DNA from: Pirellula sp.
Lineage (GTDB): Bacteria > Planctomycetota > Planctomycetia > Pirellulales > Pirellulaceae
DNA: 36,378 bases
Direction: 5' to 3'
Assembly (NCBI GenBank): GCA_021299695.1
Contig: JAJTEK010000061.1
Span: forward strand, 1 to 36,378
Shown here: piece after piece, positions 20,339 through 35,172 of the stretch
Position numbering within the stretch: the first letter of the stretch is position 1
How the letters are laid out: the number at the start of each line of letters is the position of its first letter
Translations under genes and position numbers: made by a program
The notes under the pieces: generated by a model
Told to the model about the DNA's origin: nothing
Seen by the model: only the letters and a program-made list of their open reading frames with translations
Databases searched by the model: none

Positions 20339-21640
20339 ATGAACCGTTGCAAACTCATGAATCCTATCGGGAAAGCCTCCCTCCGATCCCACATTGCGAT
20401 CCTTATGCTCGGAGCCGGGGCTCTGGTGGTATCTCAGACAGGATGCCGTGACCAAACACCCGTTGCTAGTCACTACGAACCGAACTACCTGTTTGCCAAA
20501 GCCACCGAGATCGGGCTGAGCAAGGAGGACGGGGAACTCGATCCAACCATCCAAGACAGCCAGAATCTCTTGGTCGAGTGGTTCGGTACCATGGAGGCCC
20601 CAAAACTCCCTAGCCTTCTGAAAGAAGACGACTACGCCGATTTGATCTCCGAAGCGAATCTCAAGATCGCCGTCGGAACTCCGAAAGAACCGGGAATCTA
20701 CATTCAGCAGTGCGTATCGTGTCACGGAAGCTCGGGACAAGGACGCGGGACCAATGCGGCCAGCCAAGATCCTTACCCAAGGGACTTCCGCATGGGGGTC
20801 TTCAAGTTCAAGTCCTCCCCACGCACCGCACGACCCGTCAAAGAGGACATCGAAAAGGTTTTGCGAAACGGATTGTCCGGCTCGCAAATGCCCTTGTTCA
20901 ACCAACTCAGCGATCAGGAGATCCAAGCCCTCGTCGATTATGTGGTCTTCCTGAGCCTTCGGGGTGAATTCGAACGGAGACTCATTCAATTCTCGGCCAC
21001 CGAATGGGAAGGCGAACGCCTCTACGATCCCTCAGCGGAAAAATCTGTCCTCGAAGGACAACTTTCCAACGCCTCCGATGCGCTGACCGAAATCGCCGAC
21101 CGATGGGTCCAATCGGCCGATGCAGTCGAAGACTTTCCACGACCCTCGTTCCCGATTGTCGGTTCCGAAACCGAAGAGAACAAAGAAGAATTGATCTCCT
21201 CGATCGAGAAAGGCAAAGTTCTTTTTGCCAGCGAGATCGCTTCGTGCTCGAAATGCCACGGTGTCAACGCCGACGGTAAAGGCAACCAGTTGCCCGACTA
21301 CGACGACTGGACCAAGGACTGGACCTCCAAAATCGGGATCCAACCGACCGACAGCCAGTCGCTTTTGCCGCTGATGGCCCGCGGGGGAATGAAGCCCCTC
21401 CCTTTAAAGCCCCGCAACATCCTCGAGGGACACTTTCGCGGCGGCCGGTCTCCCGAAGACCTTTACCGTCGTATTCGCTACGGAATCGCAGGGTCACCAA
21501 TGCCAGCGGCCGCGGTGGTCGAATCCCGAGATGAACCCGGTCTGATCGACGAAGACCTTTGGCACTTGGTCAACTATGTGCTTTCGATCGCCAATGTGCC
21601 TCCGCCTCCGATGGAAACCAAAGTCGTCTCGACTCAGTAA
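20339..21640 (+). CDS. Di-heme cytochrome c lipoprotein
   Basis: 433 residues from ATG 20339 (a TTG at 20330 is also in frame). The signal sequence ends at a lipobox-like 'VVSQTGC', so the protein is probably lipid-anchored outside the cytoplasmic membrane. Two heme c sites are seen: CVSCH in the first half with 'GSSGQGRGTNA', and CSKCH in the second with 'GVNADGKGNQLPDYDDW'. Candidate axial methionines lie in 'GLSGSQMPLFNQLSDQE' and 'GIAGSPMPAAAVV'. Each half is thus a class I cytochrome domain. It likely carries electrons to a terminal oxidase. The neighbouring SCO1-like gene (23263) supports a respiratory context, although no oxidase subunits lie in the window. Confidence 0.92.
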   Translation: MNRCKLMNPIGKASLRSHIAILMLGAGALVVSQTGCRDQTPVASHYEPNYLFAKATEIGLSKEDGELDPTIQDSQNLLVEWFGTMEAPKLPSLLKEDDYADLISEANLKIAVGTPKEPGIYIQQCVSCHGSSGQGRGTNAASQDPYPRDFRMGVFKFKSSPRTARPVKEDIEKVLRNGLSGSQMPLFNQLSDQEIQALVDYVVFLSLRGEFERRLIQFSATEWEGERLYDPSAEKSVLEGQLSNASDALTEIADRWVQSADAVEDFPRPSFPIVGSETEENKEELISSIEKGKVLFASEIASCSKCHGVNADGKGNQLPDYDDWTKDWTSKIGIQPTDSQSLLPLMARGGMKPLPLKPRNILEGHFRGGRSPEDLYRRIRYGIAGSPMPAAAVVESRDEPGLIDEDLWHLVNYVLSIANVPPPPMETKVVSTQ

Positions 21641-21675
21641 GTCCCCTGAAATCCAAACCTGTATTCCCCTTTTTG

Positions 21676-22314
21676 GTGCCACGCGTGTTCGATTCCCACT
21701 CGAAATTAGCCGCCGCCAAATTAGGCGACTCCGAGGCCAAAGGGGAACTGCTCGATCGATTTCGACCCTATTTAAATGTCATCGCGCAGCGATTGCTCGA
21801 TGAGAGACTTAAAGGTCGTATGGATTCAGGCGATGTCGTCCAAGCCACCTATCTCGAAGCGTCTCGGGATTTCGGTGCCTTCCGCGGAGATTCGATCGAG
21901 TCGTTCCTGGCATGGCTTCGACACATCCTGCGCAACAACGTCGCGACGGCCCACCAAGAGCATTTGGCCACCCAAAAGCGCTCGGCAAGGCTCGAGGTGA
22001 CAATCCAACCGACGGGGAACTCCTCGTCCGACCCGCTCCAATTCGAGCAGATGATTCCTTCCGATTCGTCCTCCCCGAGCCAACGGATGATGCGAAGCGA
22101 ATCGGCCGCACTGCTTGCTGCATGCATCGAACAATTGCCCTCGACCCAACAAGATGCCATACGCATGAAGTATCTAGATGGACTGTCCATCAAAGCGATC
22201 TCCGAAAGGATGCAAAAGTCCGAAATGGCCGTCGCAGGACTCCTCAAACGAGGCCTCCAAGGCTTGCGCGAACACATGTCCCGAGCCCAAGCGGGAAACA
22301 GTTCTTTCTGGTAG
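21676..22314 (+). CDS. ECF-type RNA polymerase sigma factor
   Basis: About 212 residues from GTG 21676; GTG 21685 is equally possible and no ribosome site decides between them (the frame is open back to 21559, inside the cytochrome gene). Region 2 is 'LLDRFRPYLNVIAQRLLDE...RMDSGDVVQATYLEASRDF' followed by 'AWLRHILRNNVATAHQ'. Region 4 is 'IEQLPSTQQDAIRMKYLDGL...MQKSEMAVAGLLKRGLQGL'. The region 2 'DxxDVVQxTxL' form is typical of planctomycete ECF groups. No anti-sigma gene is adjacent. It lies between the cytochrome gene (36 bases upstream) and the ABC-2 permease (37 bases downstream), an odd place in a respiratory cluster. Confidence 0.88.
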   Translation: MPRVFDSHSKLAAAKLGDSEAKGELLDRFRPYLNVIAQRLLDERLKGRMDSGDVVQATYLEASRDFGAFRGDSIESFLAWLRHILRNNVATAHQEHLATQKRSARLEVTIQPTGNSSSDPLQFEQMIPSDSSSPSQRMMRSESAALLAACIEQLPSTQQDAIRMKYLDGLSIKAISERMQKSEMAVAGLLKRGLQGLREHMSRAQAGNSSFW

Positions 22315-24270: not shown

Positions 24271-26148
24271 TTAGCCCTGCGATAAGATCAACGCCGAGTA
24301 TTTCCCAATAGCCAAGTTGCCGTGAAATGGAAGTTCATCACGAGCTCCGAGATGTCCCTCGGTATGATACCCGGGGTGGTTGTCGAAAAGAGGTGAGTAG
24401 CCTTCCCAATCGCTATTGAAACGTATAAACCAACGCCCGCCATGCGGAAGGCCCAGGGTATAGGTTTCGTATGCGCGATTAGCGAAGTTCAGGAGCACAA
24501 CTACGTCATCACCGGGCCCCCCGTCATGCCAACGGTGGAACGCAATCACTTTGTCCGAATCATTCACGTGAAAGACATTAAGTTTTTGACCGCGAAGACC
24601 TCTTGTATTGTTGTACCAGTTTCGCCTTAATCGAATCAAATCGCGATAAAGCGTTACGATTCCCGCGTAGGTTTTGAGTTTACTCCAGTCCATGCCTTCC
24701 TTGCCGGTGAACTGTCTATATTCGAGCATTTCTTGCCCTTGGAAAAGCATTGGGATTCCGGGAGATGTCATCGTCACCACCGCTCCGAGCGTCGAGCGTT
24801 TTTGCGCAAACCAGCTGTCTGAGTTACCCGGGTGGATTGCTTCCGGAACTCTTAGGCCGCCCTCTGGACGCCCAAATACATCTCCGACTTCATCATGGCT
24901 CTCGGTGTAGATGACGCGTTGCCAAGCATTACCAAAATTATTCGAGATCGCACTGGCAACGCTTCTCATGTCCCGGTATTCGTCGTTGGGGGTAACGATT
25001 GCGGCACGCACTTTGTGAAAGAACTGATCATCCCATTGGCTGTCGAAACCGAGCCCTCCGTGGGCGGTTGTTTGTGTAACCAATGCGTTCTGTCTCATGT
25101 CTTCAGCTACAATCAATTTCCAAGGCTGATCCTGGTCGACTCGATTGTTGATTCGCTGCAGCAAGGTCCACCCACAACCACCTAGTTGTGTTGGATCGTC
25201 TGGGGGCAAGTTATCCCAGCCGCGTGAATTACGAATGTAACAAGTCATGTCCAAGCGAAGGCCATCGATCCGATACTCATGCAGCCAATACAATACGTTA
25301 TCGCAAATGAAGTCGCGCACCTCGGGACGTCCGTAGTCAGGCCTTGTTTCTCCCCAGTCCCCGGTATCCGCACGCCAGTCGTTGTAGAAGTAAATGCCTC
25401 CCAATCCGTTCTCCGACCACTCGTCAAATTGCCAAAGCGATTCGTGCAAATTGTCCGGGCCGATATGGTTGTAGACGACATCAAGAATCACAGCGATTCC
25501 CAAATCGTGCGCTTTGTCGATCAGACGCTTGAGCGCTGATGGGCCTCCGTAGGCTCGTTCAACAGAAAACAAATGCTGCGGGTTATAACCCCACGAAAGC
25601 TCACCATTAAATTCCTTGATAGGCATTATTTCAATGGCATTGATACCCAAATCTCTCAACCTGCTTAAATGACGGCACATTTCATCAATGGGGCGTAACG
25701 AAGCTCGATCATCCTGACAATCAGAAAGGTAAGAGCCAAGGTGCAGCTCGTAGATTACTAACTCATCCCATGAGGGCATGCGGTAGGAATCCGTTTGCCA
25801 ATCGAATGGCTCAGCGCAAATCAAACTGTTTTCGCCATCACCAATGCACCCTGATCGTGGATCCGACCTCCAATGAAGGGGCGATTTTGTATTGTCGCCC
25901 AAGACATAGCGATACTGATCGCCATTGCTTGCTCCCGCTACGTCTACCGACCAGTACCCATTACCTTCAGAGGCCAGCGGGTTTGCGAATACATCCCAAC
26001 CATTGAATGTTCCGGCTACGTGAACCTGGCTGGCGAACGGAGCCCAGACCCGAAACGCGACACCGCCGTCAAAAACGATTGCTCCCAAACCAGGGCGACT
26101 CGACGTGACGGGCAAGGACTTACGAATTACAGTGGTGGTACTCTTCAT
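24271..26148 (-). CDS. GH13 alpha-glucan branching enzyme-like protein with CBM48
   Basis: 625 residues. An N-terminal CBM48-like domain (about 20-85, 'VAFRVWAPFASQVHVAGTFN', 'GNGYWSVDV') precedes a GH13 barrel. Catalytic elements are intact: 'DVVYNH' (223-228), nucleophile D300 in 'DGLRLDM', acid/base E349 in 'IVAED' and H418-D419 in 'YTESHDE'. The 'SWGYNPQHLFSVERAYGG' segment and C-terminal beta domain fit GlgB and GlgB-like amylases. Such enzymes cut and re-form alpha-1,4/1,6-glucan links, here in the cytoplasm because there is no signal peptide. It is the last gene of a four-gene overlapping run; its ATG overlaps the GMC gene's stop (ATGA at 26145-26148). A housekeeping glycogen role is possible, but no glgA/glgC/glgP genes are nearby. 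Confidence 0.9.
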   Translation of the reverse strand: MKSTTTVIRKSLPVTSSRPGLGAIVFDGGVAFRVWAPFASQVHVAGTFNGWDVFANPLASEGNGYWSVDVAGASNGDQYRYVLGDNTKSPLHWRSDPRSGCIGDGENSLICAEPFDWQTDSYRMPSWDELVIYELHLGSYLSDCQDDRASLRPIDEMCRHLSRLRDLGINAIEIMPIKEFNGELSWGYNPQHLFSVERAYGGPSALKRLIDKAHDLGIAVILDVVYNHIGPDNLHESLWQFDEWSENGLGGIYFYNDWRADTGDWGETRPDYGRPEVRDFICDNVLYWLHEYRIDGLRLDMTCYIRNSRGWDNLPPDDPTQLGGCGWTLLQRINNRVDQDQPWKLIVAEDMRQNALVTQTTAHGGLGFDSQWDDQFFHKVRAAIVTPNDEYRDMRSVASAISNNFGNAWQRVIYTESHDEVGDVFGRPEGGLRVPEAIHPGNSDSWFAQKRSTLGAVVTMTSPGIPMLFQGQEMLEYRQFTGKEGMDWSKLKTYAGIVTLYRDLIRLRRNWYNNTRGLRGQKLNVFHVNDSDKVIAFHRWHDGGPGDDVVVLLNFANRAYETYTLGLPHGGRWFIRFNSDWEGYSPLFDNHPGYHTEGHLGARDELPFHGNLAIGKYSALILSQG

Positions 26149-28391
26149 TTGTTCAAGTCCTTGCGCAGATGTGCCAGATGCTTAGCAAGTCGCAAAGCGA
26201 GAGCTGCGATCGTCAGTGAGGGATTTGCCGCCGGAATGCTCGGAAATACCGACGCATCGCAACAATGAATATTGTCGTATGCGAGCAGTTTAAGATTCTC
26301 ATCAACGACGCCTGTTCCGTTGTCGCTCATTCTCATCGATCCTCCGCTGTGCTGGACACTTCCCTTATCTCCCACGTGCCATTCATCATTAAGCCATTCC
26401 GTTGAGAGACCTGTCGAAGGAACTCCGAGCGCGATGAAGATATCATTTCTTGCTTTTACTATCCGATCCAGGTACGGTTTCGCGTCATGGTTCAGCCCCA
26501 CATGGATCAACGGTTTCTTGCCCTCTCCCTGAGGTCGGATCCAGTTCCGGTCGTCCAAGGGGCTCGCAAAAATGAACTTGATGCCGACGGTCGCTTCGTT
26601 GGGTCTTACGTTCCTCCACAAATCTGGATCGCGGTGACGAACATCCCAATAGGAGCTGTTAATCAAAACCTCGATGTTAAACGGATTTTCGAGTGGGTTA
26701 GCCGGGCGAACCATGATTTTCGCGTGTCCATCGACATTTCCCAGCCATTTCAGCCTGCCAGTCGTTGGAAGTTTGGGAGTCCATTTGTTGACATAGGCGG
26801 CGTGATCGGTTAGTCCGCGTCCCATCTTTGTGTTGGGATCGGACAAGCCACTTTGAATTGCAAGACGCGGGGTTTCCACAGAACCGCAACACATGACCAG
26901 ATGGCGGGCCCTGTAAACGCATGAACGATTCGCGATCAGGTCTTGACAATGAGCTAAGACTAAGTCGCCTGCAGGCTCGATCTTGGTGGTCAGATGATGA
27001 AGGGCTAGGTCCAGGTATTGCTCTCCGGCTGGGGTGTTGTAACCCAGAGATTCCAACAGAAGATCGGACGAAGAGAAGGCACCGCACGAACGACGCACAA
27101 CGTTTTGTAATTTGCCGGTACAATCGACGTCTGGTTGATGCATCGATCTTGGAAGAATCTCAACTTTGTACGAGTTTCCAAGATCCGTTTTTAACAATTG
27201 AACAACTCGATCTTGGTACGGTCCCATGGAGACCTGCTTTGTCATCAGTTCATTAGCTTCTTTATAGACGCCCAGTTGCTCTTCGGTACCGAGCAGCGCA
27301 TCCCTAACTGAATCCGGCCAAGGGCCAGTGCGGAACTCCCAAAGTTGCATTTCTGGAATGATACCGGACCAGTAGTTGGATCGCCCACCCAAATTAAAAA
27401 TCAAGCCTCCAACAAATTCACTATCGTCAGTCGAAAAGCTACCTAGTTGATCCCTTGAAACGGGATTGAATTGGCTGCGAGGGAATTCGTTCATGTGAAC
27501 CGGGTACCCAAGTCCGCCAGCTTCCAAGACCAGGGTTGAGAGCCCCTGGTCGGATAGGGCATCGGCTAGAGTTCCGCCTGCTATTCCCGAACCCACCACG
27601 ATGACATCGTAAACTTTTTCCGCACTCGGGCGGGATCTCGGCGGCACGATCCGTTGTTCCCAAAGCGACTCTTCCGCGACCAAGTTATCGTAGGCATGAA
27701 CATAGGCACTCGGCGAAATACCAAAATCGATGTCATCGTCCCTGAGCTTCCTCTCGTTTTCGTCGAGCGAGATGTGCAGGTTTACCCCCCGTATCCGATG
27801 CTGCCGATCCAAGACAAAACTGACCTCCATTTCGGATTCGCGAAACCGCGAACGGTCCAATTCAAATACCCACTTTCCTGACCCGTTCCCGGTGGTATGA
27901 AACCTTCCGAACAGATCTCGATACCAGCCGTCGACCGGAGTGCGCAAAGTAACGAGGTGGTTGGGACGCCATCGATCGGTGGAAAATTCGATCTTGTGAG
28001 CTAAATATACATCATCGTCGGTCAGATGAATTTCCTTGTCGGTTTTAGGAATGTTTCTGTTTGCGCCTTCCATCCAAATATTCCCAAGTCGGATCTTGAA
28101 TTCAAGATCTTTGGCGTAGCCATCGCGAGAAAACTCAATCTGCCAAGATCCGTCCTCATGCCAGGCCATCGGAGCAATCTTATCCCAATCGATGCTCGTT
28201 GTGATCCCAATGGGCAAAGGTGCCGTATACTTCACTGTTTTGAAAACGACTCGAATGAGGTCTCGCGTGTCTTCCTCAGAAGCGAGGATTGCCTCGGCTT
28301 TCGTTGGGACAAAGTTAGCCTCTTTTTGAAAGCCGCTGTGGTAGAAGACATCTTCGACTGCACGATTACGGGAGGGCTTGCTGTGTTTCAT
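26145..28391 (-). CDS. GMC oxidoreductase with N-terminal starch-binding-like modules
   Basis: 748 residues. About 45-125 looks like a CBM20-type module ('GSWQIEFSRDGYAKDLEFKI' then 'WMEGANRNI', the typical 'W.xGxNR' ending), and about 140-215 a second beta domain with 'GKWVFELDRSRFRE'. The FAD domain begins at 'YDVIVVGSGIAGGTLADAL' (GSGIAG at 267-272). The C-terminal GMC signature reads 'SVQHSGGSMRMS', then 'DASVFPSIPAANPSLT', with H681 and N723 as candidate catalytic residues. GMC enzymes oxidise alcohols, usually sugars, with FAD. There is no signal peptide. The fusion to glucan-binding modules and the overlap with the GH13 gene suggest that both act on one alpha-glucan. It overlaps the upstream kinase gene by 26 bases. 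Confidence 0.88.
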   Translation of the reverse strand: MKHSKPSRNRAVEDVFYHSGFQKEANFVPTKAEAILASEEDTRDLIRVVFKTVKYTAPLPIGITTSIDWDKIAPMAWHEDGSWQIEFSRDGYAKDLEFKIRLGNIWMEGANRNIPKTDKEIHLTDDDVYLAHKIEFSTDRWRPNHLVTLRTPVDGWYRDLFGRFHTTGNGSGKWVFELDRSRFRESEMEVSFVLDRQHRIRGVNLHISLDENERKLRDDDIDFGISPSAYVHAYDNLVAEESLWEQRIVPPRSRPSAEKVYDVIVVGSGIAGGTLADALSDQGLSTLVLEAGGLGYPVHMNEFPRSQFNPVSRDQLGSFSTDDSEFVGGLIFNLGGRSNYWSGIIPEMQLWEFRTGPWPDSVRDALLGTEEQLGVYKEANELMTKQVSMGPYQDRVVQLLKTDLGNSYKVEILPRSMHQPDVDCTGKLQNVVRRSCGAFSSSDLLLESLGYNTPAGEQYLDLALHHLTTKIEPAGDLVLAHCQDLIANRSCVYRARHLVMCCGSVETPRLAIQSGLSDPNTKMGRGLTDHAAYVNKWTPKLPTTGRLKWLGNVDGHAKIMVRPANPLENPFNIEVLINSSYWDVRHRDPDLWRNVRPNEATVGIKFIFASPLDDRNWIRPQGEGKKPLIHVGLNHDAKPYLDRIVKARNDIFIALGVPSTGLSTEWLNDEWHVGDKGSVQHSGGSMRMSDNGTGVVDENLKLLAYDNIHCCDASVFPSIPAANPSLTIAALALRLAKHLAHLRKDLNK

Positions 28392-31300
28392 CGATCTTCT
28401 TTATTCCTGATTGAACAATCTTCGGGGTTGGTAGAGTCCTGCAAATTCGAAACCCGTCGGCGTCCGTCGTCTTGTCTGGAGGATTCCAGTTATGCGCGTT
28501 GAAGCCAAGTTCGCGATGGTCGTCGATGAATGTCCCTCCGCACAGCCGATGGTCCCCTAGTTTGAATGGATCTCGAAATTCATCGGTTGCAAGCTTGTCG
28601 TGACACCATTCCCACACGTTGCCATGCATGTCGAAAAGCCCATGCTCATTGGGTTTGAGCTCACCGACGCAATGCGAGCGAGAACCTGCGTTGACTTGAT
28701 ACCACGCGTACTGTGCGGCAAGTTGAGGATCCTTTCCGTATGACCAATTCGTCCGCGCAGAACCCCGACAGGCGAACTCCCACTCGGCTGCGGTAGCGAG
28801 TCGGAACCCCAAGCGATCCAACGCATCGTCTGGAACCCTCATCCCCTCGCCGTATTCGCCCAACTCATTTGGTTCATAGCACCACTGACTTTGCGGAATA
28901 CCACATTGCTTGCTTAGCCAGTTGCAGTAATCGGCCGCATCGTACCAGCTTACCATGTTGACGGGACAATTGAATTCCGGCGACTTTCGCTCATCCCATT
29001 TATGGGCCTTGCGAAATCGAACAAAGTCTTCGACCGTCACTTCCGTCGTTCCAATCGCAAACGGCCTAGGGATCGTCAAATGAATTTCGCGTCCAAGGTC
29101 ATCAGTTCGGCTGAAGTTGCCGGCAGGAAAACAAACCATGGGATCTTCGAGTGGACGATGCCGATTCGTTTCGCTGACGGGGAAATGGCTAAGCAAATCG
29201 TTCTCACCAAGGAAATTCCACGCGGATGCCCCAGGGGAGGGAGCCTCAGACGGCTCAGACGCTTTTGAAACATCGTTTGTTGGCGTTTCCCATTTTCGCA
29301 GCACCCATGAGATCGGGTGACGAACACCCGGTGATCCGTTCGAATGCCAGATCCTCATAAGCCTACGAACAGCCATTGCACGAGCACCTCTTGAACGTGA
29401 GCTACCCATGTCGCCAATGGTCAAGATGATCCCATGTAATGTGCGGGAGTCTGTGAAGGATCCCAATTGATCTACAAGCGAGTCGAAATTGATCGCGCTT
29501 TCGACCAGAAAATCGATGAGCTGCGATTGGAATGTGGGGTCTTCGGTATGTTGAAACGCGGTATCGACAGCATCCCAACGACCATAGCTTGCAAGCGCGG
29601 CTGCGGCTGCAGCTGCCCTTTTGGCTTGCTCAACAGAGCGCTCATCAGCCTTCATGGCAGAATCAAAAAGATCGATGATCGGCTGGTATCCGTTGGGAGT
29701 GGCTTGGGCCAACTCGTTGTACAAACTCGCTGGAATTCTCAGCGTCGTTCCATTCGGACTTTCAACAATCTTCGCGGCCAGTTGGGAAAGAACAGATGGT
29801 GCAACTGGCTGAACAAGCACTGCCCATTGCTTTTGTTCCGCTGGGGGCAGATCAAGCAACAACGTAGCGATGTCGTCGGCCAAGAATTGCCAGCTTCCGT
29901 CAGTCGGGAGGCGATGTGCCAAGAATATAGCGATGCGGATTCGTTCTGACGATGGCGTCTCTGAATTTTTCAAGTCCTGCCATAGCGATTCTAAATTACA
30001 TTGCGAATTGGGAACATGTCTCATCGCGGCGTTCATCAATACCAGTTCGTCAAGCGGAGCCTCACGATAGTGTCCTAAGAGCTTTGGTGAAAGCTGATAG
30101 TTCCTGCGTACCAAAGCCATCAGAGCTCGTCGTTGCGATTTCCGATCATTAGTGCTCTCGGCAACGGTCAAGATGTTTTTCAGTTGTGGATGAGACCAGC
30201 GATGACATGAATCCACTGCTTCCATCAAGTAAGAGACATCTGTGGAGGTGGAGTTTAGGAACGAATCGACAATTTTTTTGGCCCGTCCGAACTCAAGAGA
30301 TGGCATCGAAATACAGATTAATGCGATCATCAAACCGAGGCCGACGATGCCTCGGCGCAGAAAACGCCTTTGTGCGTGCCGCATCATCCGTACCTGCGAA
30401 TTCGTCCACTCCGACATAGGAATCAAAGCGCGAATCTGCAACCACTCAATCAGACGGGGTAGGTGCCTAGTATCTTCGTACTTCGACCACATGTCATTTA
30501 GGCGTCGCAGCATTTGGCGAGTTCGACCACGCCAGGTGAGCGCTTCGGTTCTTGCTAACCATTCCTGCAGCGACGGGATCAAATAGTCATGGGCCAGTTG
30601 GTAGCGACGATCTTGACCAGTTCCGTCGCTCTCATCACGTCGAATCGGATCCACAGCGGTGATCAGCTTGGTCTTTTCGTCTAGAATCTGCAGAAGCTCC
30701 TGGAATTCGGCACTCTCGAGTGGCATACCACTTGCAAGGCTGAGTTCCTTTTCTGAACGGCTTCGTCCTTTGAGTGTTGTCCTTGCCTCGCCTTGAGAGC
30801 CCGGGAGAAGCAACTGTAGTACCGCCTGGGCTGCCGTCGCATAAGAACGATGAATCACTGGCGCGGTCGGTAGGGTGAAGGTTTTTTCGAGGAACCGGAC
30901 TCCTATGCCTTCTACGCCACCGTAGAGTTCCAGTGTGCGAGGATCCCAAGTTTCATCTTTGAGAATCTCTGCAACGAATGCGATTTGAACCGGAGCGACG
31001 CGTCCGTTTTGGGAAAGCCCTTCAATCGTAGTTCCCACGAACGCGCGTTGATCTCTACTCAGCGGAGCGGGATGGGCTGGCAACGCACGATAGGCACGGC
31101 CAAATCCCTGGAGGACAATTTCTGCGTGTGAAGTTAAGAAAAGATCGATGAATACAGCATTCTCGCCGTCGGCCAACGGTATTTCAACGCTTCTCATCAG
31201 GCGAGAAGTTGCCAGCCAAAAGTCGTCACGAACGATCAACAGGGTTTGTAAGGCAACTCCATCACAATGACGCAGAGCAGAAACGAGTGGATCGGTGGGC

Positions 31301-33060
31301 GCACTGTCTGAAACACTCAACCACTGTTCCAACTGATCGATAATAACGACGAGCTTTTTCTTCTGTGGACCAATCGTATGGCGAACTCGATCGAACAACT
31401 CAGCTAGCGTCAAATCGTCAAACTCGGAACCCGAAACGATGTCGGGTAAGGTTATGTGCAAAGCATCGCGGAGGCGTGCTTCGAGATCGTGTTTTGTTGC
31501 TTCCACGACAACGACATACGTCGAAGAATCCAATCGAGGGAGAACACCGGCTTTTACGAAGGATGATTTTCCGCAGCCGCTCGGCCCATAAATTACACCT
31601 ATGGGGAACGTTGCATTCGGCTCTCTGCATAGTAGTTTGTCACAAACAAATCTGACGGTTTCAGGTACTCCGTCGGTTCCCCTGAGCCCAGGCATCAGAG
31701 CGCAGAACACTTCCGCATCCGACATTTCAAAGCTGCGAACGCCGACCGGGAATAAAGAATGCGAAACTCCATCGACTTGGTTGGTGGTTTGACATATCGC
31801 CTGAGGAATCTTGGCTCTGAGAAATTGACTCAAATCGGCGGAAAGATCTGCCGCCGTTGAATAACGGTCGGTCATTCGTTTTTGTAGACACTTCATACAG
31901 ATCCGTTCCAGTTCCGTAGGAACGGATTCGTCGATCTGTCGCAATGGTTTCGGGTCGCGGCTCTCAACTTCGTCGATCAGCTGCGACATTTCGCGACCAT
32001 GAAAAGGACGTTGACCTACCAATAGTTCGTAGAGGATCACCCCTATCGCCCAAATATCAGTGCGTCCATCGAGCCGGTGGGTTTCACCACGTAGCTGCTC
32101 CGGCGACATATAGGGTCTTGTACCAGCGCGTTGGCCCTTGCTTTGCCATTGCTGGTCGTCACGAATCGCGAGGCCGAAGTCAACCAAATATGCCCTACCC
32201 TCGCGATCAACCAAGATATTTTCTGGTTTCACATCGCGATGCACCAATCCACTCTCATGCGTATGTTGCAACCCATCAGCAATCTGGCACAGGATACTGA
32301 CGAGTGCTTGGCGATCCGAATCATTTTGCTGGGTCCAGTCGCGCAGATTTACACCATCGATCCATTGGCTGGCAACAAAACACTGCTGTTGCTTCAATTC
32401 CCCCCAGTCCACGATTGGAACAATTGTGGGGTGCCGCAACATGGATACCTTCTTGGCCTCTTCCAAGTATCGGGTAAGCGAGTCTTTCGATAATGGCTTG
32501 TCGTGCCGAGGGATCTTGATTGCAACTCGTCTTCCGTTGTCACGATGCTCGGCCAAATAGACATTAGAGAACCCACCTTGCCCAAGCTGCCGAATAATCG
32601 AGTAGTCGCCTACGTAGTTTGTGATTTTCTGGGGCGGTGTTTCGCTCGGGGCAAAGAAATCATCAAGTAGCTTGATGGGAATGGACTGGAACGACTCTGC
32701 GTAAGCGTAATCCCTAGGTAAGTCCTTGCGATTGGCATGTCTCGATTCCCTTGGAACTATTTCTAAAGCATTCTGGCACAACTGACGCAGCTCTGCCTCA
32801 TTGAGCAACCGTCGCAAGACGGCGAACCCTGGATCGACTCCCAGAGCCGATACACCACTATCCGAAATCGCATCGAGCCGACCATCCTCGCCATTTTTCT
32901 TCGAGGTAACCGCCGCCTCAAGTGTCTCGACGCATCTCAAACAGTCGGGGCATTCACACAGGTGTTCACCGATCCATTCGCAACTTGATTGGTCGATTGC
33001 TCCCCGATGAAAGTCTTTTAATTGTTGCCATGAAGGGCATGCATGGCGAGTCCTGCCCAT
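28366..33060 (-). CDS. Zinc-finger/Ser-Thr kinase/STAND NTPase/FGE-like fusion protein
   Basis: 1564 residues. Residues 8-45 look like an anti-sigma zinc finger: H33, C37 and C40 give the Hx3Cx2C pattern. A Hanks-type kinase spans about 153-415, with 'LGQGGFSNVYLAEH', K182 in VAIK, HRDVKPEN (274-281) and DFG (294-296), so it should be active. About 450-850 is an nSTAND1-type NTPase with Walker A GPSGCGKSS (492-500) and 'VVIIDQLEQW' (571-580). A TM helix follows at about 903-920, then a helical HEAT-like stretch and, at about 1305-1545, a sulfatase-modifying-factor (FGE) fold ('EVTVEDFVRF', 'LATAAEWEFACRG', 'GLFDMHGNVWEWCHD'). The FGE part lacks the paired active-site cysteines and is more likely a binding module. 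The ATG overlaps the sigma factor stop (TAATG). Probable role: signal-transducing regulator of that sigma factor. Confidence 0.9.
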   Translation of the reverse strand: MGRTRHACPSWQQLKDFHRGAIDQSSCEWIGEHLCECPDCLRCVETLEAAVTSKKNGEDGRLDAISDSGVSALGVDPGFAVLRRLLNEAELRQLCQNALEIVPRESRHANRKDLPRDYAYAESFQSIPIKLLDDFFAPSETPPQKITNYVGDYSIIRQLGQGGFSNVYLAEHRDNGRRVAIKIPRHDKPLSKDSLTRYLEEAKKVSMLRHPTIVPIVDWGELKQQQCFVASQWIDGVNLRDWTQQNDSDRQALVSILCQIADGLQHTHESGLVHRDVKPENILVDREGRAYLVDFGLAIRDDQQWQSKGQRAGTRPYMSPEQLRGETHRLDGRTDIWAIGVILYELLVGQRPFHGREMSQLIDEVESRDPKPLRQIDESVPTELERICMKCLQKRMTDRYSTAADLSADLSQFLRAKIPQAICQTTNQVDGVSHSLFPVGVRSFEMSDAEVFCALMPGLRGTDGVPETVRFVCDKLLCREPNATFPIGVIYGPSGCGKSSFVKAGVLPRLDSSTYVVVVEATKHDLEARLRDALHITLPDIVSGSEFDDLTLAELFDRVRHTIGPQKKKLVVIIDQLEQWLSVSDSAPTDPLVSALRHCDGVALQTLLIVRDDFWLATSRLMRSVEIPLADGENAVFIDLFLTSHAEIVLQGFGRAYRALPAHPAPLSRDQRAFVGTTIEGLSQNGRVAPVQIAFVAEILKDETWDPRTLELYGGVEGIGVRFLEKTFTLPTAPVIHRSYATAAQAVLQLLLPGSQGEARTTLKGRSRSEKELSLASGMPLESAEFQELLQILDEKTKLITAVDPIRRDESDGTGQDRRYQLAHDYLIPSLQEWLARTEALTWRGRTRQMLRRLNDMWSKYEDTRHLPRLIEWLQIRALIPMSEWTNSQVRMMRHAQRRFLRRGIVGLGLMIALICISMPSLEFGRAKKIVDSFLNSTSTDVSYLMEAVDSCHRWSHPQLKNILTVAESTNDRKSQRRALMALVRRNYQLSPKLLGHYREAPLDELVLMNAAMRHVPNSQCNLESLWQDLKNSETPSSERIRIAIFLAHRLPTDGSWQFLADDIATLLLDLPPAEQKQWAVLVQPVAPSVLSQLAAKIVESPNGTTLRIPASLYNELAQATPNGYQPIIDLFDSAMKADERSVEQAKRAAAAAAALASYGRWDAVDTAFQHTEDPTFQSQLIDFLVESAINFDSLVDQLGSFTDSRTLHGIILTIGDMGSSRSRGARAMAVRRLMRIWHSNGSPGVRHPISWVLRKWETPTNDVSKASEPSEAPSPGASAWNFLGENDLLSHFPVSETNRHRPLEDPMVCFPAGNFSRTDDLGREIHLTIPRPFAIGTTEVTVEDFVRFRKAHKWDERKSPEFNCPVNMVSWYDAADYCNWLSKQCGIPQSQWCYEPNELGEYGEGMRVPDDALDRLGFRLATAAEWEFACRGSARTNWSYGKDPQLAAQYAWYQVNAGSRSHCVGELKPNEHGLFDMHGNVWEWCHDKLATDEFRDPFKLGDHRLCGGTFIDDHRELGFNAHNWNPPDKTTDADGFRICRTLPTPKIVQSGIKKIDETQQALP

Positions 33061-33692
33061 TACATGCTCTCCTTGGCTTCGGGAAACATATTGCGAAGCT
33101 GTCCAAGAACACGTGATTTGATGACGTAAACATGAGCCCGCTCTAAACCATTCAGGTCAGCAACCTCGGAAGCTGATTTTTCTTCGACCGCTAGCTGCCA
33201 GAAAACCGTCCAGTGGATCGGCTGAATATGCTCCTTTGCGTAGTTCAACACCTGAACAAGGAAGCTTTTTTCTGTTGCATCATTTCCTTGGATGGATTCA
33301 TCAGATTCGGGAAAATCCTTGATTTTGTCGAGCCATTCGCTGCCGCCGGCTGCTTGGGGCTGTGCGTTCATCTTGGACCAATGGTCTCGAATCTTGTTTT
33401 CAGTGATTGAGCGGATCCAACCACGCAAAGTTCCTCCAGGCGATTTGCGATCAAATCGTTGGAGATTTCTTGATACGGCAATAAACACCTCCTGCCCCAC
33501 GTCGCGGGCCGTTTCGGCGTCCAATCCTCTCATACGGCACCAACTATATACCAATGGAGCATGAAATTCCACGAGAAGTCTCCATGAGTCTTCATCTTGT
33601 CTACATGCTCGCTCAAGCAAACTCGTAGCAATCGAGCTCATGGTTTCTTCAATCGGATCACTATTGTCTTCTTCAATCATTAACGATTCCAT
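33060..33692 (-). CDS. ECF sigma factor of the kinase-linked type
   Basis: 210 residues from ATG 33692; ATG 33680 (MIEEDNSDP) has a better-placed GGAA and may be the true start. Region 2 is 'LVEFHAPLVYSWCRMRGLDA' and 'ARDVGQEVFIAVSRNLQRFD', with 'RGWIRSITENKIRDHW' as region 2.4 and 'FWQLAVEEKSASEVADL...VYVIKSRVLGQLR' as region 4. Its stop codon overlaps the start of the zinc-finger/kinase gene by one base (TAATG), so both are made together. ECF factors encoded next to kinases are a known planctomycete group (STK types described by comparative genomics). It heads the four-gene operon and probably drives its own transcription and possibly that of the divergent protease gene. Confidence 0.9.
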   Translation of the reverse strand: MESLMIEEDNSDPIEETMSSIATSLLERACRQDEDSWRLLVEFHAPLVYSWCRMRGLDAETARDVGQEVFIAVSRNLQRFDRKSPGGTLRGWIRSITENKIRDHWSKMNAQPQAAGGSEWLDKIKDFPESDESIQGNDATEKSFLVQVLNYAKEHIQPIHWTVFWQLAVEEKSASEVADLNGLERAHVYVIKSRVLGQLRNMFPEAKESM

Positions 33693-33963
33693 CTAACAAG
33701 CCAAAGCACTAACCGTTCCGATTTTTCTGTACATGGGGCTCGTTCGCCCGAGAGTTGTAGTTTAGCAAACCTATAAGTTGGATTCCCGCGCTTTTCAGAA
33801 AAAAATTCATTTGGTTTTTGTGACTCAGAGTCGGCTTTGCGATCTTCACGCTGGCCGCTCTGACCGCCGAGCATGAGCCAAAACTCGACGCCGGAAATTT
33901 TTTGTTAGACCCCAGCGTTAATCCTCGTGTGGTTGGATTTCAAAACAATTTTTTGGAGAGAGA
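33693..33963. other. Divergent intergenic region at the centre of the accessory block
   Basis: It separates the ECF-led operon from the protease gene. It is A/T-rich in parts (an A7 run near 33800 and T-runs near 33900) and contains an 11-base dyad GACTC-A-GAGTC at 33822-33832. Promoters for both directions should be here, but I cannot place an ECF-type pair with confidence. Confidence 0.5.
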
Positions 33964-33966
33964 ATG

Positions 33967-35172
33967 ATGAGCGTCGGTGAAAACGGATTTGGAGAAAATG
34001 CGGAAATGAGTGCTAGTTCCGCAGACGATACTGGCAACTTTGATTTACCACCGAGTGGGCAAGCGAGTAGTTCCAATTCTGGCTTCGATTTGCCGCCCGG
34101 ACAAGGTGGCGACGGAAGTTATGAAGTTGGTGCGAGCATCGAATCAAGCGTCTCGGCTCAACTGCTTGAGTGCAAGAAGCAGATTGAACAAAAACTTGTC
34201 GAGGCCGCGTCCTCCAATGCCATGTCGATCGCACGGATGAGAAATGTGGACAGTGCTGGTGTCCAGGGCGTCGGAATCTCGGCGTCGAGTTCCATCCCCG
34301 GTGGCGAGGCAAGTTTGATTGTCTACGTCGAAAGCAGCGCGGATGTCGAGCAAGTTCGCCGTGAGATCGTTGATATTATGGGCGTGCGAGCAGCGTCTAG
34401 CGATTCGCTTCCAGTGGAGGTAGAAGTCACCGGGCCAATCACCGCCTACACGACCAATCAATCGAAATTTCGGCCCGCCCCAGGCGGTGCATCGGGCGGC
34501 CATTTCCAGATCACGGCTGGCACAATCGGCGGTTGGGCTCGCGGTAGAGGCGACGATCGCAGACGCCGTCTGTTGATGCTTTCTAACAATCATGTGTTGG
34601 CCAACTCCAACGCAGGCAAGTTCGGCGATCCCATCATCCAGCCGGGACGTTTGGATGGCGGCCTGAACCCGGCCGATCAGATCGCCATACTGGAACGGTT
34701 TGTACCGATCAACTTTGCAGCAGGCTCCACCAACTTTGTCGATTGCGCAACAGGATGGTGTTGGCCGGATCGGGTTCGTCGCGACCACGTGCATCACAGC
34801 GGGAGCGCGACGGCCAAGTTTTTCCGGATCGGAAATGCGCCAATCGAACCAGTGGCCAATATGCTCGTAGGCAAGACCGGCCGGACGACAGATTTGACTC
34901 AGGGAACGGTTCGTGCGACAGGTGTAACGGTAAACGTCGACTTCGGTTCGGCTGGAGTGGCAACATTCATTGACCAATTCTCGGTCCGATCCACAACCTC
35001 TGGAACGTTCTCCGCGCCTGGTGATTCAGGTTCCATCGTTTGGGCAGTCCGTCAGGGCTTGCCGCCTGTCGGTTTGCTGTTTGCCGGTGGTGGTGGAACT
35101 ACGTTCTGCAATCGGATCACACGAGTGTATGCAGCACTGCAAATTGACCCTTTTGAGCTGCCATTGATCTAG
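33967..35172 (+). CDS. Cytosolic trypsin-like serine protease with N-terminal alpha/beta domain
   Basis: 401 residues from ATG 33967, preceded by GGAGAG; another ATG lies directly before it. There is no signal peptide. The first 55 residues are Ser/Gly-rich and contain two FDLPP motifs. Residues about 60-160 form a small alpha/beta domain ('GVQGVGISASSS', 'ASLIVYVESSADVEQVRREI', 'LPVEVEVTGPITAY'). The protease domain shows 'MLSNNHVLANSNAGKFGDPI' (H209), 'STNFVDCATGW' (D259) and 'FSAPGDSGSIVW' (S354), the His-Asp-Ser triad of chymotrypsin-fold enzymes. The layout resembles bacterial and plant NAL1-like proteases. It is divergent from the sigma/kinase operon, the usual position for an effector or a regulatory target; this role is inferred. 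Confidence 0.87.
   Translation: MSVGENGFGENAEMSASSADDTGNFDLPPSGQASSSNSGFDLPPGQGGDGSYEVGASIESSVSAQLLECKKQIEQKLVEAASSNAMSIARMRNVDSAGVQGVGISASSSIPGGEASLIVYVESSADVEQVRREIVDIMGVRAASSDSLPVEVEVTGPITAYTTNQSKFRPAPGGASGGHFQITAGTIGGWARGRGDDRRRRLLMLSNNHVLANSNAGKFGDPIIQPGRLDGGLNPADQIAILERFVPINFAAGSTNFVDCATGWCWPDRVRRDHVHHSGSATAKFFRIGNAPIEPVANMLVGKTGRTTDLTQGTVRATGVTVNVDFGSAGVATFIDQFSVRSTTSGTFSAPGDSGSIVWAVRQGLPPVGLLFAGGGGTTFCNRITRVYAALQIDPFELPLI

Follow-up and report, generated by a model that had tools for sequence, protein, structure and literature searches.

Extracytoplasmic function (ECF) sigma factors whose genes adjoin genes for Ser/Thr protein kinases (STPKs) make up the groups ECF43, ECF59, ECF61, ECF62, ECF217, and ECF283, with planctomycete examples for 59, 61, 62, and 217 (PMC8999054), and such sigma factors are generally predicted to be activated via their own phosphorylation (PMC8103513; PMC8999054). 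EcfP has STTA in place of the region 2.2 motif DAED, and phosphorylation restores the charge (PMC8999054; PMC8103513); the review invokes sigma phosphorylation for ECF–kinase pairs because a co-expressed anti-sigma gene is usually lacking. A precedent for another route, in trans, is PknB, which frees two ECF sigma factors by phosphorylating zinc anti-sigma factors (PMC8999054). Among planctomycete kinases, the formylglycine-generating enzyme (FGE) domain is the third most abundant associated domain and is mostly periplasmic in kinases with a single transmembrane helix (PMC11032199). Here we describe a 36,378-nt stretch of Pirellula sp. DNA (contig JAJTEK010000061.1, assembly GCA_021299695.1; the whole stretch is called the window) in which an ECF sigma factor gene overlaps the gene of a kinase-containing receptor whose N-terminus is modelled as an anti-sigma-like domain. 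That this is a single-pass membrane receptor which holds its own sigma factor and releases it in cis through its kinase is a reading to which we give about an even chance.

Receptor modules and the N-terminal zinc domain

Open reading frames (ORFs) and Pfam reveal a minus-strand run of four genes in the window, encoding the sigma factor, the receptor, a GMC oxidoreductase, and a GH13 branching-enzyme-like protein (Table 1); all four are present in one genome of the same genus. The sigma ORF and that of the 1564-residue receptor (28366-33060(-)) were verified as open frames, and the TAA stop of the former and the ATG of the latter have one base in common (TAATG), an overlap that an earlier note on this DNA had reported. 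The note had also described a single polypeptide with a zinc motif, a kinase, a STAND NTPase, a transmembrane helix, and an FGE fold, which ORFs, Pfam, and hydrophobicity bear out, with H33, C37, C40, and K182 where it had put them. It overlooked a solenoid between the transmembrane helix and the FGE domain, C8 as a fourth zinc ligand, and both genes downstream of the receptor. The sigma factor matches TIGR02937 at 62.9 bits (cut-off 42.9) over residues 37–202, placing it among ECF sigma factors with regions 2 and 4; Pfam finds region 2 at 39.9 bits and does not detect region 4.

The zinc motif of the receptor reads C8-x24-H33-x3-C37-x2-C40, and its four ligands are invariant in all 11 aligned N-termini, the rows having been chosen for the motif. 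The Pfam family zf-HC2 matches this region at 14.9 bits, below its cut-off of 22.2. A model of residues 1–100 has a mean pLDDT of 68, with block means of 84–90 across residues 11–50, and comprises three confident helices. Hx3Cx2C spans helices 2 and 3 (24–36 and 38–55) and is complemented by the upstream ligand, which agrees with class I anti-sigma domains, whose helical fold carries Hx3Cx2C over helices 2 and 3 (PMC7406223). When the model was compared with VIA-align, the best eight entries were all anti-sigma domains, with scores of 8.7 for ChrR, 6.4 for RsiW, 6.2 for both MucA and RslA, and 3.7 for the lowest, DdvA, unrelated chains starting from 3.2; Foldseek placed the same anti-sigma families at the top, but with E values of 0.16 or worse. 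The N-terminus is thus modelled as a class I anti-sigma-like domain whose fold comes closest to those of ChrR and RsiW, in keeping with the zinc finger of the earlier note; the anti-sigma fold is predicted for the region of residues 1–60, which would bind the sigma factor.

The kinase domain (Pkinase, 168.1 bits, residues 153–403) retains K182, HRD, and DFG and is intact, as had been supposed. It is followed by an nSTAND1 NTPase (62.9 bits, cut-off 27.1) with the Walker A motif GPSGCGKSS, by a single clearly hydrophobic helix at 904–922 (mean Kyte–Doolittle value 2.16), and by an FGE-sulfatase domain (121.8 bits, residues 1307–1540). When the 160 residues past the STAND module were compared in 41 kinase-STAND-FGE proteins, the peak of hydrophobicity fell at +49 to +62 in all 41 and had a net positive charge on its N-terminal side (above 1.6 on the Kyte–Doolittle scale in 38), which supports a predicted single-pass topology with solenoid and FGE domain in the periplasm and agrees with the outside position that the earlier note had assigned to the latter. 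The FGE region has the fold of formylglycine-generating enzyme structures, among whose titles are the C336S and C341S mutants. By eye, the window protein has no cysteine past CGGTF at the places matching the two active-site residues of the human FGE motif (C336 and C341), and in this it departs from a catalytic FGE.

Pairing with the sigma family and ancestry

Hx3Cx2C was found in 15 of the 18 kinases first inspected beside the sigma factors nearest that of the window, ortholog included. The fetched loci contain 40 sigma factors of the family (E 1e-30 or better; window and ortholog excluded). A kinase accompanies 38 of them within the fetched stretch, and in 35 of these 38 cases the kinase carries [CH]x23-26-Hx3Cx2C; the occurrence of the zinc motif beside sigma factors of this family is not due to chance. 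Near-duplicate loci (L029, L136, L111, and L104) were excluded from trees and pair counts. Across six genomes, where zinc-domain matches were compared with 53 strong and 16 of the weaker sigma rows, 40 of 53 zinc-domain matches have a strong family sigma no more than 1 kb away (chance would give 0.2 of 48), four more lie near a weaker sigma match (44 of 53 in total), and nine have no sigma match, a count that is not blind, since the sigma and zinc profiles were both built from rows of such pairs. Conversely, 40 of the 53 strong family sigmas have a zinc domain within 1 kb, and 13 have no domain match nearby.

The three partner kinases that lack the motif would be expected if the zinc domain were a structural relic or a mere tether for the kinase, with the sigma factor controlled elsewhere. 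We consider this highly improbable in view of the retention of the motif in the other 35 and of its distribution, the zinc domain tracking the sigma family and not the STAND-kinase body: in the tree set of 46 kinase-STAND proteins, the three with Hx3Cx2C all stand beside a family sigma, and the remaining 43 have neither the motif nor a strong family sigma in the fetched stretches. The Mantel correlation with sigma over 33 pairs is 0.81 for the zinc domain and 0.89 for the kinase, a measure by which the sigma-contacting part is indistinguishable.

Zinc-motif kinases end in WD40 (L038), leucine-rich repeat (LRR; L033, L047), or FGE (L031, L034, L040, L044) modules, and WD40 and LRR end some STAND-less kinases beside family sigmas. 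This variety is compatible with a more general proposal, which we hold tentatively and put somewhat below an even chance: planctomycete ECF–kinase pairs of this family would have the anti-sigma factor built into the kinase, as a modular cis switch with WD40, LRR, FGE, or STAND-plus-FGE sensors in which phosphorylation of the zinc domain frees the sigma factor. A second kind of STAND-kinase/ECF pairing is seen at L086, L088, L106, and L112, where kinase-STAND-FGE genes without the zinc motif have sigma-like ORFs of a different ECF type directly upstream.

The sigma factor together with a zinc-kinase-STAND-FGE receptor was found in the window, in the ortholog's genome (G014), in L154 (Pirellulaceae PL25a; its position matches G422), and in L192 (G413). 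Across the 241 genomes of the family, no sigma matches are stronger than those of these four, and the one that follows them stands at 2e-49. The kinase tree (81 rows; identical stretches and those below 230 aa omitted) unites the three lineages in a single clade (98*), which falls on the STAND-kinase side (support 88, not starred). Of 29 zinc-kinases, 24 stand apart from it, and the remaining five are placed on the STAND-kinase side too. In the sigma tree (33 rows), which came from a careful search, the kinase, STAND, and FGE trees being quick ones, the three lineages again form one clade (100/95*), and its sister (96/83*) comprises the sigma factors belonging to the five zinc-kinases just mentioned, which are STAND-less proteins of the same genus with an FGE end. 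The FGE ends of the three lineages do not form one clade (p-AU 0.034, approximately unbiased (AU) test): that of the window clusters with the FGE domains of receptors adjoining GMC genes (support 90, not starred), and L192 has no solenoid match and a BTRD1 repeat ahead of its FGE domain. The STAND tree rejects neither grouping of the window (AU 0.61 and 0.23). Taken together, the trees suggest that the sigma/zinc/STAND-kinase front end arose a single time for all three lineages and that the sensing end was probably exchanged later.

Sensing end, downstream genes, and candidate mechanism

The frequency of the receptor's rear end was assessed with the STAND segment (residues 418–925, without FGE) in 396 genomes of the order, with at most three candidates scored per genome. 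Matches at E 1e-25 or better occur in 74 genomes, and 41 loci were read, namely 40 fetched from the matches listed, mostly the best, and the ortholog. An FGE domain follows the STAND module in 36 of the 41 (one of these, L123, is truncated on either side and has no visible kinase), and two of the five FGE-less proteins run off their contig. The claim that such an ending is uncommon does not hold, given also the rank of FGE in the planctomycete kinase survey: the STAND-kinase-FGE body is common, and the unusual part is the front end. The companion idea that STAND-kinases as a rule end in WD40 or TPR repeats was set aside; the module look at the 41 loci, the five FGE-less proteins among them, covered FGE and solenoid only. 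The earlier picture of an all-in-one receptor is thus upheld in its modules and predicted topology and fails in the supposed rarity of FGE.

FGE is also the fastest-diverging module, at 85.7% identity to the ortholog versus 95–96% for kinase, STAND, and solenoid. The divergence grows toward the receptor's C-terminal end (28366-28560), where the ortholog stops 14 codons sooner and the window receptor reads through into the GMC start (26 nt); it includes synonymous changes, which fits local recombination. Variation driven by a diversity-generating retroelement (DGR) was rejected, as the substitutions relative to the ortholog have no adenine bias; a search of the receptor's own genome for a template repeat of the last 800 bases found none but one 74-base, 73% stretch. 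One reverse transcriptase, whose sequence was inspected, is encoded elsewhere in the genome.

GMC homologs were searched in 396 genomes, with at most two candidates scored per genome, and reach E 1e-60 or better in eight. A scan of named genomes gave 45 GMC loci. The six best-scoring ones (L136–L141, all planctomycete; the ortholog's locus is L136) each have a kinase-STAND-solenoid-FGE gene next to the GMC gene, and four of the six have the GH13 gene as well; at L153 and L154 a kinase-STAND-FGE gene lies within about 2.3 kb of the GMC gene. The remaining 37 loci, which include short ones as well as the planctomycete L145 and L147, showed no kinase-STAND gene, and L192 has no GMC match within its 16 kb. 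At the cyanobacterial L165, L169, L173, and L176, a GMC–GH13 tandem occurs as a conserved enzyme pair. The receptor gene points the same way as the GMC gene in the window, G014, and L154, the sigma-bearing loci with GMC, a layout that fits an operon controlled by its own sigma factor; the two genes are divergent or convergent in L137–L141, where no sigma match was seen. L153 qualifies this, as its receptor and GMC genes are co-directional though no sigma match is present.

The rapid divergence of the FGE domain and the GMC-adjacent receptors of L137–L141 without a sigma match would also suit a conflict or immunity receptor, in which FGE senses an invader, STAND oligomerizes, GMC/GH13 or the kinase acts as effector, and the sigma factor merely tunes expression. 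An nSTAND1 module with a C-terminal FGE-type CLec occurs in putative conflict systems (PMC10907252), and some such neighbourhoods hold ECF genes (PMC8195603). These systems are, however, described with adaptors, peptidases, nucleases, and the like (PMC8195603), none of which Pfam finds in the receptor, GMC, or GH13 proteins, a negative that is qualified by a weak trypsin-like match in the divergent neighbour (see below). Effector-associated or death-like adaptor domains were likewise not found by Pfam, and no search with dedicated models was made. As there is moreover no sign of a DGR and GMC and GH13 look metabolic, we regard such a function as improbable.

The general prediction for ECF genes beside STPK genes (PMC8103513; PMC8999054) would make the pair EcfP/PknT-like: the sigma factor would be intrinsically weak, the zinc domain a mere docking site, and the kinase would activate the sigma factor in or near region 2.2. 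The adjacent STPK gene is present, and the DAED site of the window sigma reads TARD, with one Thr and a single acidic residue. The site has not been emptied of charge, however: both of its ends are acidic in 15 of 19 relatives, with DAxD in 11 of the 19, and at the third position, where EcfP is phosphorylated, the window sigma has Arg and that of L154 has Leu (DTLD). Because the acids are partly kept, the pair departs from the EcfP mechanism in its defining feature, and with a zinc domain that is conserved and modelled as anti-sigma-like, we find this explanation rather unlikely.

Under the reading that the receptor holds its own sigma factor, cytoplasmic residues 1–60 would at rest bind the ECF sigma encoded just upstream, as ChrR, RsiW, and RslA do with theirs. 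In the periplasm, the solenoid and FGE domain may take up a ligand and signal via the transmembrane helix to the STAND NTPase, whose ATP-dependent assembly would draw kinase domains together. The target of the kinase could then be the zinc domain to which it is joined, the linker, or else the sigma factor, and the freed sigma would transcribe its own operon, including the genes for the GMC oxidoreductase and the GH13 enzyme. By analogy with PknB, this would be a cis version of a known release, for and against which we see the chances as evenly balanced.

Table 1. Features of the four-gene run in the window.
Feature	Position	Strand	Basis
ECF sigma factor, 210 aa	33060..33692	-	TIGR02937, Pfam; G014 ortholog 95% identical
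Receptor residues 1-60, modelled class I (zinc) anti-sigma-like domain, ligands C8, H33, C37, C40	32881..33060	-	Motif and model
Receptor residues 146-417, Ser/Thr kinase with K182, HRD, DFG motifs	31810..32625	-	Pfam and motifs
Receptor residues 431-850, nSTAND1 NTPase, Walker A GPSGCGKSS	30511..31770	-	Pfam and motif
Receptor residues 904-922, single predicted transmembrane helix	30295..30351	-	Hydrophobicity
Receptor residues 926-1290, HEAT-like helical solenoid, predicted periplasmic	29191..30285	-	Model; Pfam HEAT_2 below cut-off
Receptor residues 1301-1545, FGE/C-type-lectin-like domain without catalytic cysteines	28426..29160	-	Pfam and structure match
GMC oxidoreductase, 748 aa, 26-nt overlap with receptor gene	26145..28391	-	Pfam and homologs
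GH13/CBM48 alpha-glucan branching-enzyme-like protein, 625 aa, 4-nt overlap with GMC gene	24271..26148	-	Pfam

Residues 1–255 of the GMC protein include about 250 N-terminal residues without a significant Pfam domain and with aromatic motifs conserved across homologs. A divergent gene (33964-35172(+)) faces the sigma gene over a common upstream region; its weak Nal1_C (trypsin-like) match is below the Pfam cut-off, its counterpart in G014 is 93% identical, and a shorter ORF that follows it, from 35275 to the contig end, is alike by eye. Upstream of the sigma gene, GGGTCTAAC at 33904-33912(-) occurs once in the window (0.12 expected) and twice 5' of the L154 sigma gene. No two-block motif was shared by four or more of the eight sigma upstream regions searched, the ortholog being excluded. 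A second sigma factor in the window (21640-22314(+)), with Sigma70 region 4 above and region 2 slightly below cut-off, resembles the receptor-paired family weakly.

Comparison with known systems

ECF/STPK pairs, zinc anti-sigma factors, and FGE kinases were already known; what we propose as new is the fusion of an anti-sigma-like domain to the kinase. In the titles and abstract openings searched, no anti-sigma–kinase fusion is named; the main ECF reclassification and an older planctomycete ECF paper lay outside that search and may note one. If the kinase indeed bears the anti-sigma factor, control of planctomycete ECF–kinase pairs becomes directly testable, and a single inhibitory domain would link many sensors, including an NLR-like STAND module, to transcription in one bacterial lineage. 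The recurrent sigma/zinc-kinase pairing in many relatives hints at the working of a poorly understood class of bacterial switches.

The zinc domain resembles ChrR, RsiW, and RslA in its modelled helical fold with Hx3Cx2C on helices 2 and 3 and differs from them in its place, N-terminal to a kinase and a STAND NTPase in a 1564-residue receptor. With the ECF/STPK groups the locus shares an ECF gene adjoining a Ser/Thr kinase gene; unlike them, its kinase carries a fused anti-sigma-like domain, the acids of the DAED site are partly kept, and STAND, solenoid, and FGE modules are added. Treponema denticola variable protein 1 has the same FGE/CLec fold, and in contrast to it the window has no sign of an acting diversity-generating retroelement. 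The closest counterparts in architecture are the planctomycete single-transmembrane FGE kinases, which likewise have a cytoplasmic kinase, one membrane helix, and an FGE domain predicted to lie outside (PMC11032199); to this plan the window receptor adds an anti-sigma-like domain and an nSTAND1 NTPase, neither combination being mentioned in the part of that survey cited here.
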